A DNA stretch of 40,885 nt from a virus: IMG/VR virus record IMGVR_UViG_3300047319_001483, positions 1 through 40,885 of that record; one strand, given 5' to 3'. Below are positions 6,057 to 36,251 of the stretch, in pieces. The first letter of the stretch is position 1; the number at the start of each line of letters is the position of its first letter. Made by a program: the position numbers and the translations under genes. The notes below the pieces were generated by a model. The model was not told where the DNA came from and searched no databases. It saw nothing but the letters and a program-made list of their open reading frames with translations.

Positions 6057-6386
6057 CTACTCGATTTCCTCCAGAACAGCACCCTGGTCCCGGAGGAGGG
6101 GAATCGCAGCGACGCCCCAGTGCTGCTCGGAAACGACCTGCCCCTTCATCAGATTCGTGAGGCAGCCGTTGACGTGAACAGCGACGTCGTCCTTCACCCG
6201 GTATCGCTTGCGCTTGCCGAGCACCGCTTCGACTTCGGCGTCCGACGCTGGCGGACGGACAAGCTCGACCTTGGCGGGGGGCGGCGCGGGCTTCTCTTCA
6301 GGCTTCTTCTTCTCGAACAGAGTCGAAGGCGCCTTCATCTTGGCCGCTTCCACCGGGTCGAACTTGACCGTCTCCTTGTCAGCCAT
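6057..6386 (-). CDS. Small Lys/Pro-rich head-module protein
   Basis: A 109-residue protein with a low-complexity basic, Pro-rich N-terminal half (KKKPEEKPAPPPAK) and a compact C-terminal part (KRYRVKDDVAVHVNGC then GVAAIPLLRDQGAVLEEIE in part). The latter resembles small beta-barrel SH3-like modules. No family is recognised. It is the first gene after the gene-free structured stretch that follows the capsid gene, so its leader would contain that element if both are on one minus-strand transcript. Confidence 0.5.
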   Translation of the reverse strand: MADKETVKFDPVEAAKMKAPSTLFEKKKPEEKPAPPPAKVELVRPPASDAEVEAVLGKRKRYRVKDDVAVHVNGCLTNLMKGQVVSEQHWGVAAIPLLRDQGAVLEEIE

Positions 6387-6402
6387 CGGACACCTATGCG
6401 TT

Positions 6403-6830
6403 CAGAGGCATCTCTGCCTCGCGTTGAAGGTGGGGCGTAGCAACGCACAGTAGAGGGGGACGAACCGAGTTTGACCCAACCCGTAAGGGAGTGTCCCCCA
6501 AAACAACGTGTGGCCACGTGTAGTTCGGCGATGTAGCACCGTGAGGTGCAGTTGCCGAAACCAACCCAATCTGCGTGAGCAGATGCCCCGAGTGGAGTCG
6601 GCGGTTCCATGGGCAAAGCCCAGGGTTTGCAGACTCCGAAGGCTCCCGATCAAGGGAGCACAGTGCCGACTCGACTTCCATCCCAGTCCTAGAACCAGGG
6701 TCGTGTCGGTGGACGCGAGACCCCATGGAAGTGGGGTGATTCGGTCCGAATGCCCCCGAAGGGGCACAGCTATGAATGGCGGCTGCCATCTCTTCATCGA
6801 CTCCCCCAGCGGACCGCTCTGGGGGAGTCT
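6403..6830. ncRNA. Large structured RNA candidate after the capsid gene
   Basis: The 454 nt between the capsid gene and the next gene hold no credible ORF but are packed with helices. Hairpins: 6405-6420, 6421-6446, 6480-6489, 6506-6519, 6536-6549, 6569-6584, 6610-6622, 6642-6659, 6721-6736, 6739-6751, 6751-6766, 6776-6789 and 6799-6829 (11 bp). Long-range helices: 6455-6461 with 6493-6499, 6524-6529 with 6554-6559, 6595-6602 with 6665-6672. On the plus strand several loops are GNRA (GTGA twice, GTAA, GGAA) and some flanking pairs become G-U. On the minus strand there is one cTTCGg and one GAGA loop. The strand is therefore open, with plus slightly favoured by loops and minus by transcription of neighbours. 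It resembles ornate phage RNAs (GOLLD, ROOL) in style only. Confidence 0.65.
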
Positions 6831-6840
6831 GTGAAAGGAA

Positions 6841-8241
6841 TCAGCCGTGCTGGATGACGATCTCACGCTTGTAGCGCGAGGCGTCGCCCGTGGTCGCGTC
6901 GGTGCGCACCGGCCAGTCGCCGATGAACTTCCACGAAGCCGCCACCGTGTCCTGAAGGCGGTTCAGCGGAGACCGGAGGATGAGCTGGATGCGGTCGGTG
7001 AAGACCTCGATGCCGTTGTTGCTGATGCGCGGCTCGCCGACCTTGCCCGTGACGCCCGCCTCGGTGATGAGACCCGACAGGTCCTGCCAATACTCCATGA
7101 TGCCGCCCTGCGCGGTGAACAGCGGACGGTGGATGACCACGCCGCTGGAGTTCACCAACTCGCCCGCGAACGGGTCCTGGAGGGAGTAGCTCAGGGAGCC
7201 GCTGACGAAGGTCGTGTTGCCACCGACCACCGTCTGCGGAATCGGGCACTCCGAGTTGCGGAAGAACGCGCAACCGAGGAGCTGGCCGATGGCGAACTGC
7301 TGGTACATGAAGTAGTCGGGCAGCGCGGTCAGGAGGCGCTGCCACTCGGGGTCGTTGAAGACCTCGGCCTGCGACGTCGGGTCCAGGTGGCAGTGGAACC
7401 GCGCGTCCGGGTGCTCCGGCACGTTGTTCTGCCAGAAGTCGGCCACCGCCGTGCGGATGTCCGTCAGGCGGAGCTGGTTCGCCGTCGTGATGCCGTCGAT
7501 GGTCGTGGCGCCGCCGACGTTGACGATGAAGCTCTTGTCGACCGCGAACACGCCATCACGGTCGGCGACGGTCACTGCCGCGTCGAGGATGAGGTTGCCC
7601 GGGCCGGTCGTGTCGCCAGGGTTCAGCGACGTGAAGCCGATGACGTTGCGGGCGGCCAGCGCCGGCCCGATGAGGACCGGGAGCGGGTTGGTGCCCGACA
7701 CCGTGGTGAACTGGACCGCCGAGCCCGACGGAAGGTCCGGGCGGCGCGCGGTGGTGAAGCCGTTGAGGCGGGCCACCAGAAGCGAGGTGACACCGACCTG
7801 AGCGCCCGTGGCGACCGTCGAGCCCGACAGCGCCGCGTTGTACAGGCGGTTGCGGACCAGGCGGTTCAGCGTCTGGCCCGACGCCATGCCGAGCTGATGG
7901 GCATTGCGAAGGAACAGGTTCGCGATGGCCACGATGCTCGTCGGCATGTGGGTGTCGATGGTGGAGGCGTACTGCTGAAGCTGCGCCGTCCACTGCTCCT
8001 TCTGGTACGTCGCCAGAGGCGGGTCGACACCCGGGGTGAGCGGCTGGAGCGTGGGGCTCATCAGGCCGACGCCCGTGAAGGCCATCGTGTCACCGATGTT
8101 CGCCGGCCACACCTGCGGGCTCGCGTCGCCGCGGAACAGCAGGCGGGGGAAGAGCGCATCGTGGAACGCACGCTCAAGGATGTTCTCTTGGACGATTGCC
8201 CGGATGTCGGGCGACTGGAGGATCGTACTGAAGTCGGCCAT
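6841..8241 (-). CDS. Major capsid protein
   Basis: A 466-residue protein encoded directly after the scaffold gene; it should adopt the HK97 fold and form the head shell. The N-terminus starts with a helix (FSTILQSPDIRAIVQENILERAF in part) followed by WPANIGDTMAFTG. The C-terminal half has a P-domain-like run (FHCHLDPTSQAEVFNDPEW) and ends in WKFIGDWPVRTD. An AAGGGG site lies before the ATG. The length and the scaffold-then-capsid order support the call. The leader (8263-8338) can form a long stem and the 3' side is followed by the structured stretch. Confidence 0.88.
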   Translation of the reverse strand: MADFSTILQSPDIRAIVQENILERAFHDALFPRLLFRGDASPQVWPANIGDTMAFTGVGLMSPTLQPLTPGVDPPLATYQKEQWTAQLQQYASTIDTHMPTSIVAIANLFLRNAHQLGMASGQTLNRLVRNRLYNAALSGSTVATGAQVGVTSLLVARLNGFTTARRPDLPSGSAVQFTTVSGTNPLPVLIGPALAARNVIGFTSLNPGDTTGPGNLILDAAVTVADRDGVFAVDKSFIVNVGGATTIDGITTANQLRLTDIRTAVADFWQNNVPEHPDARFHCHLDPTSQAEVFNDPEWQRLLTALPDYFMYQQFAIGQLLGCAFFRNSECPIPQTVVGGNTTFVSGSLSYSLQDPFAGELVNSSGVVIHRPLFTAQGGIMEYWQDLSGLITEAGVTGKVGEPRISNNGIEVFTDRIQLILRSPLNRLQDTVAASWKFIGDWPVRTDATTGDASRYKREIVIQHG

Positions 8242-24701: not shown

Positions 24702-25780
24702 CCGACCTTCTCGACGACGGCGTCCCACAGCCGGCGGCGTGCTTGGAGCGAGGAGATCGCTGCACCGGTCGCCTCATGCCACCGGGCCACGTCCTCCCCA
24801 CAGAACGCAGACAGCATCCGCATGGCCAGGCCCGAGTGCTCGTTGGAGTCCACCTCGATGTGCCGCTCCAGATACTGCTTGAGAATGGGGACGTCGGCGG
24901 GCAGGTTGCGCACGCCAGCCAGGAACATGGCCGGGATGGCGGCCTCGCGACCGATGGTGAAGGCGGCGCAGATGGCGTGCGGGCGGCCGACGTTGATGAG
25001 GTCGAGCGTCGACAGCACGAACTCCTGCGCGGGCGCCGGGACACCAGCCTTCTGGAGCGCGGTGTGGATGAGGTGGCCTTCGCGAACGCAGCGGACGAAC
25101 GTCTTGATGGGCTCGACGTTGGCGCCGGCCTCGGTCATGGCGCGCAGGTACATCTCGAAATGCGACTCGACCTGGCCGGGCGAGGTGATGTCGCTCTCCT
25201 CGCCGATGACGATTTCGTTGATGAGCCGGCGCGTCTCCGGCGTGCCCTTGGGCGTCCAGGGCACATCGACGCAGGTCGTGAGCCGCTGCAACGACTTGAG
25301 CAACGACATGAAGTCCCAGACCGCGTAGACGTGGAACTCCATGAACGTGCGCAGCGCGGCCGGCGAGGTCAGGGCCATCCACATGCGGTGCGACGCCACC
25401 GCGTCCAGGTGCCCCGCCACGGCGTCTCGCAGCTCCCCCATGCGGTCGAGCGTCGGCTGGTGGACATGGGTCATCACCGGCGGCACCGGCAGCCCCATGG
25501 CCTCGGGCGCCTCGGGGCCGAGCAGCGCGCGGATGAACTGCACGGCGAGCAGTTCCTTGGTGCGGCGCGGGTCGTCGGCCGGGACACCCATGAGTTGAAG
25601 CTCGGCCAGCCGACGATAGCTGGCGGCAATTGCCACCGTTGCCACCTCTTGGCGGGTGGTGTGGCCCTGGAACACGGCGGTCTCGACCGCGGCCCACGCC
25701 TGGACGGGGCCGTGGATGTGGATGGTGCAGCCCTGCACCGCTTGGCGGAGGCGGGCGGCGAGGTCTCCCGCGGTCATCAT
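24698..25780 (-). CDS. DUF3050 heme-oxygenase-like protein
   Basis: A 360-residue helical protein. The start is the ATG overlapping the GTP cyclohydrolase stop (TGATG), with a second ATG directly after. The segment TFMEFHVYAVWDFMSLLKSL and the stretch LINEIVIGEESDI match the DUF3050 pattern as I know it. A C-terminal RHIEVDSNEH (Glu309, Asp311, His315) is a likely metal site. The family belongs to heme-oxygenase-like diiron proteins, many of which oxidise small molecules. Next to GTP cyclohydrolase and a DpdA-like gene it could tailor a modified base. That role is inference. Confidence 0.75.
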   Translation of the reverse strand: MMTAGDLAARLRQAVQGCTIHIHGPVQAWAAVETAVFQGHTTRQEVATVAIAASYRRLAELQLMGVPADDPRRTKELLAVQFIRALLGPEAPEAMGLPVPPVMTHVHQPTLDRMGELRDAVAGHLDAVASHRMWMALTSPAALRTFMEFHVYAVWDFMSLLKSLQRLTTCVDVPWTPKGTPETRRLINEIVIGEESDITSPGQVESHFEMYLRAMTEAGANVEPIKTFVRCVREGHLIHTALQKAGVPAPAQEFVLSTLDLINVGRPHAICAAFTIGREAAIPAMFLAGVRNLPADVPILKQYLERHIEVDSNEHSGLAMRMLSAFCGEDVARWHEATGAAISSLQARRRLWDAVVEKVG

Positions 25781-26397
25781 CACGCGCCGAAGACCGGGCG
25801 CTTGCCGTAGGCAGTCGCCAGGAAGTCGCGGCGGTACGGGTCCTCCTTGAGGCAGCCGCGGAAGTCTTGGACGGTCACGATCTCTTGCGCCGGCGCGTTC
25901 GACTTGCAGATGAGGCACATATGAATCGAGTGGAGCACGAGCCCGACGCCCTTGGGCTGGAGCACCTGCTCGCACGCGTTCAGCGCGTCGAACAGCAGGC
26001 GCTCGTTCAACTGCGGCTGGCGCGCGAGGTAGTTGAGCGCCTTCTTCACTTTCGAGTAGCCCGTGATGAACTTGTCGGGGACGTACGCGAAGTGGGCGAC
26101 GCCCAGCGCGGGCGCCAGGTGATGCTCGCACATCGACACGTAGTGGCAGTCGGTCACCATCACGAGGTCGTTGACGCCCGGGTTGGGGAACGTCTTCCAC
26201 GGAATCTCGATGTCGCACCACGGCGCGTTGATGATGTCCGCGTACATCTCGGCGACGCGGCGCGGAGAGTTCTGCATCACCTCCGCCTTGTCGCCCTGCC
26301 CGAGCGCCAGCAGCATCTGGCGCACGGCGTCCTCCAGCCGGTCGAGCATCAGCGGCTTGGGGGGAAGCTGCGAACCGACCTTCTTCTCACTCTCCAT
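25780..26397 (-). CDS. folE: GTP cyclohydrolase I
   Basis: A 205-residue enzyme converting GTP to 7,8-dihydroneopterin triphosphate, the first step to folate and to 7-deazaguanines. Zinc ligands Cys90 and the HH pair (His92/His93) sit in SMCEHHLAPALGVAHFAYVP. The third ligand Cys161 is in HSIHMCLIC. The final FRGCLKEDPYRRDFL is family-like. Length is normal. GGAG lies 9 nt before the ATG. It overlaps the SLOG gene by 11 nt. In phages the enzyme usually feeds DNA base modification, which fits the DpdA-like gene two kilobases upstream. Confidence 0.93.
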   Translation of the reverse strand: MESEKKVGSQLPPKPLMLDRLEDAVRQMLLALGQGDKAEVMQNSPRRVAEMYADIINAPWCDIEIPWKTFPNPGVNDLVMVTDCHYVSMCEHHLAPALGVAHFAYVPDKFITGYSKVKKALNYLARQPQLNERLLFDALNACEQVLQPKGVGLVLHSIHMCLICKSNAPAQEIVTVQDFRGCLKEDPYRRDFLATAYGKRPVFGA

Positions 26398-26890
26398 TGG
26401 TCATCACTCCCAGACGCTCGGCGTGGCTGCGGAGCCACATCTCGACGCGCGTCGAATCAAGGCGGACGTTCGCATGGTCGACGCCGGGCAGGTCCCACGA
26501 GTCCCACGAGAACACAGGGCGCTTGTACTCCAGCGCGTAGCTCATCTCCTGCAACGTGCCCAGACCACCGGGCACGGCAATCATCACGTCGCACGCCAGC
26601 GCCACCAGGACGTTGCGCGCCAGCCCGATGCCGGTCGGCAGCACGAGCGAGAGGTGCTCGTTGCCGTCCTCATGCGCGGTGCCGGGCAGGATGCCGACCG
26701 TCAGCCCGCCGGCGGCGCGGGCGCCGCGTGCGGCCTCGGTCATGACGCCCGACAGGCCGCCGGTCAGCACCACGAAGCCGGCGCGCGCCGCGGCGAAGCC
26801 GGACGTGAACGCCATCTCGGCCACGTCGGGCGCCCACTTGGTGCCTCCCACCTTGGTGCCGACGACGGCTGCCACGTGGAGGCGGCTCAC
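26387..26890 (-). CDS. LOG/SLOG-family protein (TIGR00725-like)
   Basis: A 167-residue Rossmann-like protein with the signature PGGLGTLQE and the preceding TGGLSGVMTEAARGA. Both are typical of LOG-type nucleotide phosphoribohydrolases and the TIGR00725 relatives. LOG enzymes release a base from a nucleoside monophosphate. In this block such an activity could supply a free base for the transglycosylase, but this is a hypothesis. It overlaps ParB (ATGA-like) and FolE at either end. Confidence 0.75.
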   Translation of the reverse strand: MSRLHVAAVVGTKVGGTKWAPDVAEMAFTSGFAAARAGFVVLTGGLSGVMTEAARGARAAGGLTVGILPGTAHEDGNEHLSLVLPTGIGLARNVLVALACDVMIAVPGGLGTLQEMSYALEYKRPVFSWDSWDLPGVDHANVRLDSTRVEMWLRSHAERLGVMTNGE

Positions 26891-33696: not shown

Positions 33697-33725
33697 CTAC
33701 TATTGTGTAGCCATCGTCAAGTCAA
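33697..33725 (-). promoter_or_regulatory. Possible promoter for SSB operon
   Basis: TTGACT (33720-33725) is 17 bp from TAGTAG (33697-33702) on the minus strand, overlapping the polymerase stop. A second TTGACG overlaps at 33715-33720. The -10 box is poor, so this is only a candidate. It would drive 33218-33673 and the SSB gene. Confidence 0.35.
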
Positions 33726-36251
33726 TTTCGACATGCTTCCCCACTGCTGCCCCACTTTCACATCGACGGCCAGCGGCACCGGGCCGGAGTCCCACGAGCA
33801 CATCGTGGCGCGCATGTGCGCCGCCACCTCGGGCACCCGCGCCTCATCACACTCCGTCATGATCGAGTCGTGAACGGTCAGCACGACCTTGTCGCCCTGA
33901 CGCGAGCGAACGCACCAGTCGGTCAGCGAGGCGAGCGACGCGAGGCAATAGTCCGACGCCGTGCCCTGCACCGCCGTGTTGTAGCTGGCGCGCTCCGCCT
34001 CCGACCGCACGAGGTCAGCCTCGTCCCCGATGCCGAGCAGCGGGCGGCGGCGGAACCGGCGGCCCTCCCAGTACGTCCAGGTCATGCCCGTCTCGTGCGC
34101 CTCGACCACGCGGTCCTCGACCCACGACGCCAGCTTACTGAACTTGCCGAGGATGGCGTTGCGGATGGCGGCGGCCTCCTGCCGCGAGCAGCCGGTGCGC
34201 GCGACAATCCCAGCATCGGACATCCCGTAGATGACGCCGAACACGAAGGTCTTGGTGCGCGAGCGGTGCTCGTCCGTCACGTCGTCCGGTCGCACGCCCC
34301 ACACCATCGGCGCGATGAACTTGGCCGTCTCCTTGTGGAAGTCGACGCCCGACGTGAAGAGCCGCAGCATCTCGTCGTCCCCCGACAACATGCAGGCGAT
34401 GCGCAGTTCAAGCTGGGAGAAGTCCGCCTCGACCAACATGCGGCCGGGCGGCGCGATGAAGCAGTCGCGGAACTCCTTGCCATCCGGCGTGCCGGCGCGC
34501 GGCGCGTTCTGCATGTTGGGCCGCTCGCACGAGATGCGGCCCGACCGCGCGCCCGCGATGCGGAAGCTGGGATGCACACGTCCATCGGGGCGCACATGAG
34601 GAAGCATCCCGTCGGCGTAGGTGCCGAGCATCTTGGTCAGCTTGCGGTACGTCAGCAGGTCATCGACCACCGGATGGTGACCGCGCAGTGCCTCCAGCGA
34701 GTCGGCGTCGGTCGACGGCTTGCCGGTGTCGGTCAACTTCTTGGGGTGCAGCCCCAGCTTGCCGTACAGCAGTTTCGCCACTTGAAGTGGGGAGTCGGGG
34801 TTGAACTCGTACTGTGCGAGCGAGACCTTGGCGTCGTCGATGAGCAGGCGCAGGCGCCCACCGAAGGCGCGCACGGCGTCCTCGTCCAGGCCGATGCCCC
34901 AGGCTTCGATCTGTTCGCACGCCTGCGACGCGGGCCGCACGATGCGCGACCACACGCGGGCCAGGCTGGGCTCGTCCGCCATAAGCGACTCGTAGTGGTC
35001 GGTCAGTAGCGCGCACGACAGAGCGTCGCGGCCGCAGTAGATTTGCAGCACGTCGCGCGGCACCATCCCGTACGCGTAGGACTCGGCGTCGATGCCCGAC
35101 CGAACAGCCTCACGCACGGACTCGTCGAGCACCTGCACGACCGCCTGCTCATGGACGACCGGCACCGCCTTGGCGTCCTTGCCCCAGGCGTTCAGCGCGC
35201 GCTTGGCCTTGTCGACGTAGCGGTACGCCTCTTCCTTGTGGCCGCCCATGCCCACCAACTCGGCGAGCGACTCCAGGTCACCCGGGCCGTCCGGGTCGAT
35301 GAGCTTGGGCCACAGGTACGTGTCGCCATAGAACCCGCGGACCTCGACGCCGAGGCCGCAGCGGATGGCCGTCGAGTCGAACTTGAAGTTGGCCGCGGTC
35401 TTCTTGATTCGCACGTCCGTGAGCAGGTCCTCCAGCACGCGGCGGCAGCCCGGGTCCGCGAGCGCCTCGGCCGGCCACACCCACGTGGTCGTGAGGGACG
35501 AGACGCCGACGCACAGCAGTCGGAACTCGGGCGAGAACATCCGGCCGAACGTCTCGCAGTCGTACGCGATGAAGCGGCCGCGGCACAACTCGGTGGCCGC
35601 CAACTCGGCCTGGTGTCCGCTCGTCACGATGCCGACCTGACGCGACCACGGCGGAACGTCAGGCGCGGCACAGGTCAGCGCCCACGCCACGTCCGTGGCG
35701 AACCGCTTGCGCTCCAGCCGGTTGTGGCCGGCGGCGCGCGGCGAGGGCAAGCAGAACACGGGCACGGGCGGCGGGCCGTACAGCCAACCGTAGGCGCGGT
35801 GCATGTCGACCTTACGCCCCAGCAGTGAGAACGCGGCCCAGGGCCCGAGCGCGATGATGCGAGTCGGCGCGGCTTCGCGGACGGTCTGCGCCAGATGGCC
35901 GCGGCAGGCATTGGCGATCTTCTTGCCGACGTCCGCCAGCCCCGCCGGCCGGCACCGCACCGCGTAGTCATAGGCCACCGGCCCCGTCCAGTGCGCCCCC
36001 ACCAGCTTGCGCACCATCGCGCCGGTCGCGCCACAGAACGGGCGGCCGGGCTCCGCGTCGGCCTCGCGCGCATGCTCCCCCACCACGAGCACGCCACCGG
36101 GCGCCCCCTCGGCCGGGATACAACTGGCCGTCACCGCCTCGCGCGAGATGTCCCCCAGCGTGCATCGCTGGCAGTCCGTCATGACCTCGACGGACTCCGT
36201 GACCTCGACCAGCGCGCGCGGCTCCCCGTGGAACAGCGGCAGGTTGCTCAC
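33717..36251 (-). CDS. UDG-like domain fused to DNA polymerase I (family A)
   Basis: An 844-residue fusion. Residues ~20-200 look like a family 4/5-type uracil-DNA glycosylase (CQRCTLGDISREA, EHAREADAEPGRPF, ALGPWAAFSLLG, CLPSPRAAGHNRL). A 3'-5' exonuclease follows (YDCETFG with DxE). The polymerase starts around 430: motif A VEADFSQLELRI, motif B KTFVFGVIYG, motif C LTVHDSIMTE (Ser in place of the usual Glu after HD). It is the phage's replicative polymerase. The UDG part may sense uracil or modified bases. Such fusions occur in some large phages; glycosylase activity is not shown. Confidence 0.9.
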   Translation of the reverse strand: MSNLPLFHGEPRALVEVTESVEVMTDCQRCTLGDISREAVTASCIPAEGAPGGVLVVGEHAREADAEPGRPFCGATGAMVRKLVGAHWTGPVAYDYAVRCRPAGLADVGKKIANACRGHLAQTVREAAPTRIIALGPWAAFSLLGRKVDMHRAYGWLYGPPPVPVFCLPSPRAAGHNRLERKRFATDVAWALTCAAPDVPPWSRQVGIVTSGHQAELAATELCRGRFIAYDCETFGRMFSPEFRLLCVGVSSLTTTWVWPAEALADPGCRRVLEDLLTDVRIKKTAANFKFDSTAIRCGLGVEVRGFYGDTYLWPKLIDPDGPGDLESLAELVGMGGHKEEAYRYVDKAKRALNAWGKDAKAVPVVHEQAVVQVLDESVREAVRSGIDAESYAYGMVPRDVLQIYCGRDALSCALLTDHYESLMADEPSLARVWSRIVRPASQACEQIEAWGIGLDEDAVRAFGGRLRLLIDDAKVSLAQYEFNPDSPLQVAKLLYGKLGLHPKKLTDTGKPSTDADSLEALRGHHPVVDDLLTYRKLTKMLGTYADGMLPHVRPDGRVHPSFRIAGARSGRISCERPNMQNAPRAGTPDGKEFRDCFIAPPGRMLVEADFSQLELRIACMLSGDDEMLRLFTSGVDFHKETAKFIAPMVWGVRPDDVTDEHRSRTKTFVFGVIYGMSDAGIVARTGCSRQEAAAIRNAILGKFSKLASWVEDRVVEAHETGMTWTYWEGRRFRRRPLLGIGDEADLVRSEAERASYNTAVQGTASDYCLASLASLTDWCVRSRQGDKVVLTVHDSIMTECDEARVPEVAAHMRATMCSWDSGPVPLAVDVKVGQQWGSMSKLT

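Follow-up and report, generated by a model that had tools for sequence, protein, structure and literature searches.

The 454-nt gap between the major capsid protein gene and the next gene of the head operon harbours a conserved structured RNA, which is encoded on the minus strand and represents a new family: It is not in Rfam 15, in the papers searched or in isolated phages, and it is carried by dozens of relatives. Its fold has long been kept while the letters of the sequence changed. On the basis of sequence comparison, we propose with moderate confidence that the RNA is a cis-acting structured leader, which would set the expression of the gene that follows it, named here after its DPxEAAK motif, relative to that of the capsid protein.

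Gene setting of the gap

The window, i. e. the whole stretch of DNA analysed, comprises the 40,885 bases of one record from an uncultivated tailed virus, the head genes of which are all on the minus strand. The gap (6387-6840) is directly bordered by a minus-strand gene on either side; its features are listed in Table 1. The first-pass annotation had reported no credible ORF at this place, and the comparison of relatives agrees: There is no conserved reading frame in the gap, as none of the frames stays open across the core in more than 9 of the 32 members. These findings and the length of the core, which varies from 28 to 33 nt among the relatives, rule out a conserved ORF. A self-splicing intron was rejected as well, as the match of the capsid protein spans its entire length whether or not a relative carries the RNA, and the next gene begins past the RNA. 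Neither tRNA genes nor a sigma-70-like promoter belonging to the RNA were found within the window, and the large terminase encoded there is of the ordinary type. Note that the 9-bp hairpin which follows the capsid stop codon lies outside the conserved RNA core; strong local structure occurs in the first 90 nt past this codon in relatives with and without the RNA alike.

Two further loci of the window (both on the minus strand) are worth mentioning. An 844-aa ORF (33717-36251) combines a family-A DNA polymerase (E=3e-92) with an N-terminal domain of the uracil-DNA-glycosylase superfamily (E=1e-6), which looks like an uncommon fusion. At 25780-26890, GTP cyclohydrolase I adjoins a SLOG-cluster-4 (LDcluster4) protein; this pair may point to modified-nucleotide metabolism.

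Table 1. Features of the gap and of its two flanking genes, in order of position
Feature	Position	Strand	Evidence or remark
Downstream head-operon gene, 109-aa ORF	6057-6386	-	homologue in 111 sampled loci
Tail: ACCUUC start (family consensus ACYUUU), small hairpin, translation start region of next gene	6387-6431	-	
Pc 3' strand, GCCCC	6432-6436	-	permutation test; pair probability
Pseudoknot arm 3' strand, GUCCCCC	6455-6461	-	minus-strand fold, pair probability
H-type pseudoknot	6466-6489	-	stem 1 6487-6489/6475-6477 (CCC/GGG); stem 2 6478-6483/6466-6471 (CGGGUU/AACUCG)
Pseudoknot arm 5' strand, GGGGGAC	6493-6499	-	minus-strand fold, pair probability
Variable arms inside Pc	6500-6584	-	not conserved; almost absent in compact member L019
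Pc 5' strand, GGGGC	6585-6589	-	permutation test; pair probability 0.97-0.99
P1 3' strand, GACUCC	6594-6599	-	covariation; pair probability 1.0
Conserved core hairpin GCAAACCCUGGGCUUUGCCCAUGGAACCGC, AAA/AACC internal loop	6601-6630	-	motif comparison, covariation; R1 60.4 bits
P1 5' strand, GGAGUC	6632-6637	-	covariation; pair probability 1.0
Peripheral hairpin GCUCCC-UUGAUC-GGGAGC	6642-6659	-	some relatives have a UCGGUC-like hexaloop here
9-bp GC-rich hairpin GACUCCCCC...GGGGGAGUC	6799-6829	-	just past capsid stop codon; minus-strand fold, self-complementary match
Major capsid protein (MCP) gene	6841-8241	-	phrog_1357 E=2.5e-11; 73 related loci

Folding and functional strand

Compared with dinucleotide shuffles, the gap folds with z-scores of -6.5 (plus strand) and -5.0 (minus strand), which were reached by 0 of 100 shuffles, in line with the large structured RNA postulated from the first inspection. 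GC-rich DNA folds readily on either strand, and the structure might for this reason be ascribed to chance folding of a GC-rich non-coding spacer. The z-scores, the controlled covariation in three modules (see below) and the one-sided occurrence of cUUCGg loops refute this explanation, the probability of which we regard as negligible.

The strand had been left open by the first-pass annotation, which leaned on GNRA-type loops of the plus strand. The distribution of cUNCGg (cUUCGg-type) hairpins gives a clear answer: In the 32 members, 46 of them are found on the capsid-sense strand and 0 on the antisense strand, whereas capsid coding sequence of equal size contains 2 and 4 on the two strands. 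Because of this one-sidedness, the functional RNA is the minus strand, which has the sense of the late head operon, and a plus-strand RNA is ruled out. The minus-strand cTTCGg loop noticed earlier is the informative one; the GNRA-type loops of the plus strand are background, with 26 antisense GNRA loops in the family versus 34 in an equal amount of capsid coding sequence. Neither the folding energy, which is lower for the sense strand in 12 of 32 members, nor the counts of G-U versus A-C pairs decide the strand. In the minus-strand ensemble of the window, the helices P1 and Pc and the pseudoknot arm have pair probabilities of 0.97-1.0.

Distribution of the RNA family

A search with the capsid protein led to 73 related viral contigs. 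A DNA comparison of the stretches past the capsid stop codon revealed a common motif of about 30 nt on the capsid-sense strand, the remainder being mostly unalignable. The search pattern GCAAACCCYR N3-22 YRYGGAACCGC, which was deduced from this motif, was found in 55 stretches when 2.9 million viral contigs were searched; in the sampled loci, the motif occurs in 46 distinct contexts. Four of these (L087, L092, L100, L103) were taken as chance matches, because they lack a capsid gene and because the core model reports three of them, each with only 15-17 bits. A further one (L108) is truncated by the contig end and is a near-copy of L045. All remaining cores are located 166-849 nt downstream of the capsid gene and on the same strand. 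The covariance model added members that lack the exact pattern (L008, L064, L041, L060), and the set used for covariation consists of 32 members which are less than 90% alike.

Among 84,980 prokaryote species genomes (GTDB), a pattern made somewhat stricter was matched seven times, in each case by chance and without P1 helix or capsid gene, and a core search in 50,697 phage records gave matches at chance level only. The family is therefore known solely from environmental viral contigs, and family-like matches are confined to those carrying one clade of the capsid protein. No DNA similarity to isolated phages was found, and the core is absent from Kromp and phiKX1, two phages with distant capsid homologues. 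At the gathering cut-off of Rfam 15, cmscan reported no family, be it GOLLD, ROOL, HEARO, OLE, group I/II introns, pRNA or tmRNA, either for the window or for 134 kb from 14 relatives, in line with the earlier impression that ornate RNAs such as GOLLD and ROOL give no specific match; for the element itself, only chance matches with E-values of about 1 were seen. The searched literature, in which subscription journals are sparsely covered such that a printed description could be missed, contained no description of the RNA.

The size of the RNA varies widely among the members, from about 120 to about 450 nt, and each long contig contains a single copy. The RNA is missing from two or three capsid sub-clades, in which the same downstream gene is preceded by a gap of only some 50-100 nt. 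As it is absent there, the RNA is dispensable in these sub-clades; the best explanation for them is loss of the RNA within a family that extends over the capsid tree. This tree comprises 61 rows, 13 of which are unclear, i. e. a gap is present and the modules were not recognised. In ten loci (L033, L034, L038, L043, L048, L056, L057, L058, L069, L071), the gene order is the same, the gap measures about 200-570 nt and no match to the pseudoknot template was recognised; these gaps may hold very divergent or unrelated RNAs.

Architecture of the RNA

The first module consists of helix P1, capped by a near-invariant hairpin with an internal loop: GCAAACCC-UG[stem-loop]CA-U-GGAACCGC. The core consensus is GC-AAA-CC-C-UG[stem-loop]CA-U-GG-AACC-GC, and its near-invariance is in part due to the search pattern, which demanded this sequence. 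For P1 and core, 104 double-change cells were counted in the 32 members, and the covariation score was 0.50 versus 0.13 for shuffled data (0/500 shuffles). In a slide control, moving the partner by one base reduced the fraction of paired cells from 86% to 36%. Covariation in homologues, which the first-pass annotation had named as a check, is thus present, both here and in the other two modules. In three members (L006, L014, L019), the core is of a second type, GCAACUCC...GGAUCGC, and the two sides of its internal loop are altered jointly, which hints at contacts of a non-canonical kind; all other matches to this core type were due to chance. The hairpin with a UCGGUC hexaloop was rejected as a family-wide feature, as it occurs in a subset of the members only.

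The second module is an H-type pseudoknot of the form CCC-UA-CGNNN-GGG-UAA-NNNCG-G, which is placed at the tip of a long arm and ends 66-186 nt (median 138) past the core. A strict template of it was matched in most members, and the best match outperforms nearly all shuffled versions of the sequence in question. For stem 2, we counted 38 double-change cells (0/500 shuffles); since the alignment of this stem was chosen by complementarity, the comparison of template and shuffles is the fairer control. Stem 1 is swapped as a whole in some members, examples of the variants being CCC/GGG, CGCG/CGCG (L004) and CCGC/GCGG (L125). Members which fail the template have variants that can be read by eye, e. 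g. L040, L051, L076 and L078.

The third module, the closing stem Pc, pairs a site 7-20 nt past the core with a site 25-38 nt past the pseudoknot. Its sequences include GGUGGC/GCCACC, GGCAGC/GCUGCC and GAUGGC/GCCGUC, and GGGGC/GCCCC in the window. With positions fixed, a member's own partners pair better than permuted ones (0/5000 permutations, 24 members); by free search, Pc is not significant member by member. The compact L019 (about 120 nt) contains nearly nothing beyond the modules.

Three long-range helices had been proposed for the gap before, and an inspection of the minus-strand fold gave a different result for each. Helix 6455-6461/6493-6499 is confirmed with a pair probability of 0.99-1.0 and carries the pseudoknot. 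The pairing 6524-6529/6554-6559 corresponds to a local arm in the variable part. Helix 6595-6602/6665-6672 is not supported: Its probability is 0, and it competes with the phylogenetically supported pairing 6594-6599/6632-6637, i. e. P1.

In most members, Pc is directly followed by a U-rich tail, and in the L080 group a GC stem precedes U7. This would suit a transcription attenuator, in which Pc and the subsequent ACYUUU form an intrinsic terminator controlled by the upstream domain. However, the window (ACCUUC), L019, L020 and L054 have no U-tract, and a terminator scan of the window gave no terminator at Pc. The terminator-like arrangement is not general in the family, and we regard an attenuator as very unlikely.

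Linkage to the downstream gene and proposed function

An iterated HMM/profile search found homologues of the next gene in 111 loci, many of which overlap or are near-copies. The protein has an N-terminal DPxEAAK motif, a disordered Pro-rich linker and, according to a fold model, a C-terminal beta domain of about 50 residues; there is no Pfam match and no PDB relative of the modelled fold. The distance from the end of Pc to the start codon of this gene is short, with a median of 24 nt (IQR 19-45). Between capsid gene and RNA, L015 and L086 contain an HNH endonuclease, and L060 contains an HNH endonuclease, a dCTP-deaminase-like ORF and others, which together span 2.5 kb (all identified by eye). 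Insertions of up to 2.5 kb part the RNA from the capsid gene, and never from the next gene. Because insertions and variable spacing fall on the capsid side, the RNA appears to be tied to the DPxEAAK gene rather than to the preceding capsid gene, with which it had been associated at first. HNH-endonuclease-like ORFs are found directly past the capsid stop codon repeatedly (L015, L060, L068, L086), and this site is possibly a hot spot of mobile elements.

The RNA lies on the same strand as the DPxEAAK gene and directly upstream of it, as a leader does. Our preference for a leader is due to the short spacing between Pc and start codon, to the insertions, which are restricted to the capsid side, and to the lack of a sigma-70-like promoter of its own. 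We infer transcription, action in cis, the level of control and any ligand as follows. The RNA would be transcribed as part of the late head mRNA, in the order P1 and core hairpin, Pc enclosing the variable arms and the pseudoknot arm, and ribosome-binding region of the next gene. The folded domain would be recognised by a phage or host factor, probably via the near-invariant core and the pseudoknot; the ribosome is another possible reader. Alternatively, the domain might act directly on ribosome access or on RNA cleavage at Pc or the tail. The effect would be passed on to the start region right behind Pc, such that expression of the DPxEAAK gene, and perhaps of later neck genes, could be set independently of the very abundant capsid protein. 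Several observations limit the strength of this argument: The RNA is absent in two or three capsid sub-clades that have the same downstream gene, compact genomes place any element near the next gene, so that short spacing alone is no proof, the HNH insertions may just prefer the capsid stop codon, and the RNA, with about 120 to over 400 nt, is large compared with a simple leader.

The same fold might form a barrier in the mRNA, between capsid and neck genes, that affects processing or decay: It would stop exonucleases or mark a cleavage site and thereby stabilise one part of the mRNA. The RNA does separate a gene required in hundreds of copies from genes for which few copies presumably suffice, and its knotted fold is very stable. 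However, a strong simple hairpin is already present past the capsid stop codon in members with and without the RNA, and a nuclease block does not require a near-invariant core sequence; we regard a barrier as improbable.

A place next to the capsid gene had suggested a role in head building, packaging or late expression. The link to late or head expression stands; for a packaging role, no evidence was found. A trans-acting structural or packaging RNA would be cut from the head mRNA and either bind capsid, portal or terminase proteins, like phi29 pRNA, or self-assemble, like GOLLD and ROOL. The strict linkage to one capsid clade, the ornate fold with a pseudoknot and the single copy per long contig are consistent with such an RNA. 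However, related phages that share the head operon lack the RNA, the large terminase of the window is an ordinary one, the 3' end of the RNA is fixed near the next start codon, and the size varies widely down to the compact form of L019. We consider this explanation unlikely; it is more doubtful still that the excised RNA acts in trans and, within a ribonucleoprotein, takes part in assembling the procapsid or packaging the DNA of this phage clade. If true, it would constitute a second, unrelated solution to the task of phi29 pRNA.

The new RNA class opens an old question to direct testing, namely how tailed phages set the large ratio of capsid to neck or accessory head proteins, the genes of which lie side by side. 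Its covariation is unusually clear, its core is near-invariant and accompanied by a pseudoknot, and its place within the head operon is fixed in a diverse clade of uncultivated phages; the compact L019 is a tractable target for structure work.

Comparison with known systems

The phi29 pRNA is a structured phage RNA tied to the head. Unlike it, the head-operon RNA occurs together with an ordinary terminase in the window. In the leader RNAs of ribosomal proteins, a complex conserved fold precedes a structural-protein gene of an operon, and the head-operon RNA likewise has such a fold in front of an operon gene. It differs from both systems in having no Rfam match.

GOLLD and ROOL are large ornate phage RNAs with conserved and variable regions, which are often located near tRNA islands; many GOLLD RNAs exceed 800 nt (PMC12286853). 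The head-operon RNA resembles them in being an ornate phage RNA with conserved and variable parts. In contrast, it is fixed between two head genes, is only about 120-450 nt long, lacks an Rfam match and is not accompanied by a tRNA in the window. The gene 32 leader of T4 and RB69 is a small pseudoknotted RNA, which is bound by the phage's own Ssb protein (PMC3014915, PMC535899). In both cases, a phage gene has a pseudoknot ahead of its start codon, whereas a near-invariant core and a closing stem are found additionally in the head-operon RNA. Nothing shows common descent of the two, and the gene 32 leader of T4 may serve by analogy as a precedent for a pseudoknotted phage leader.
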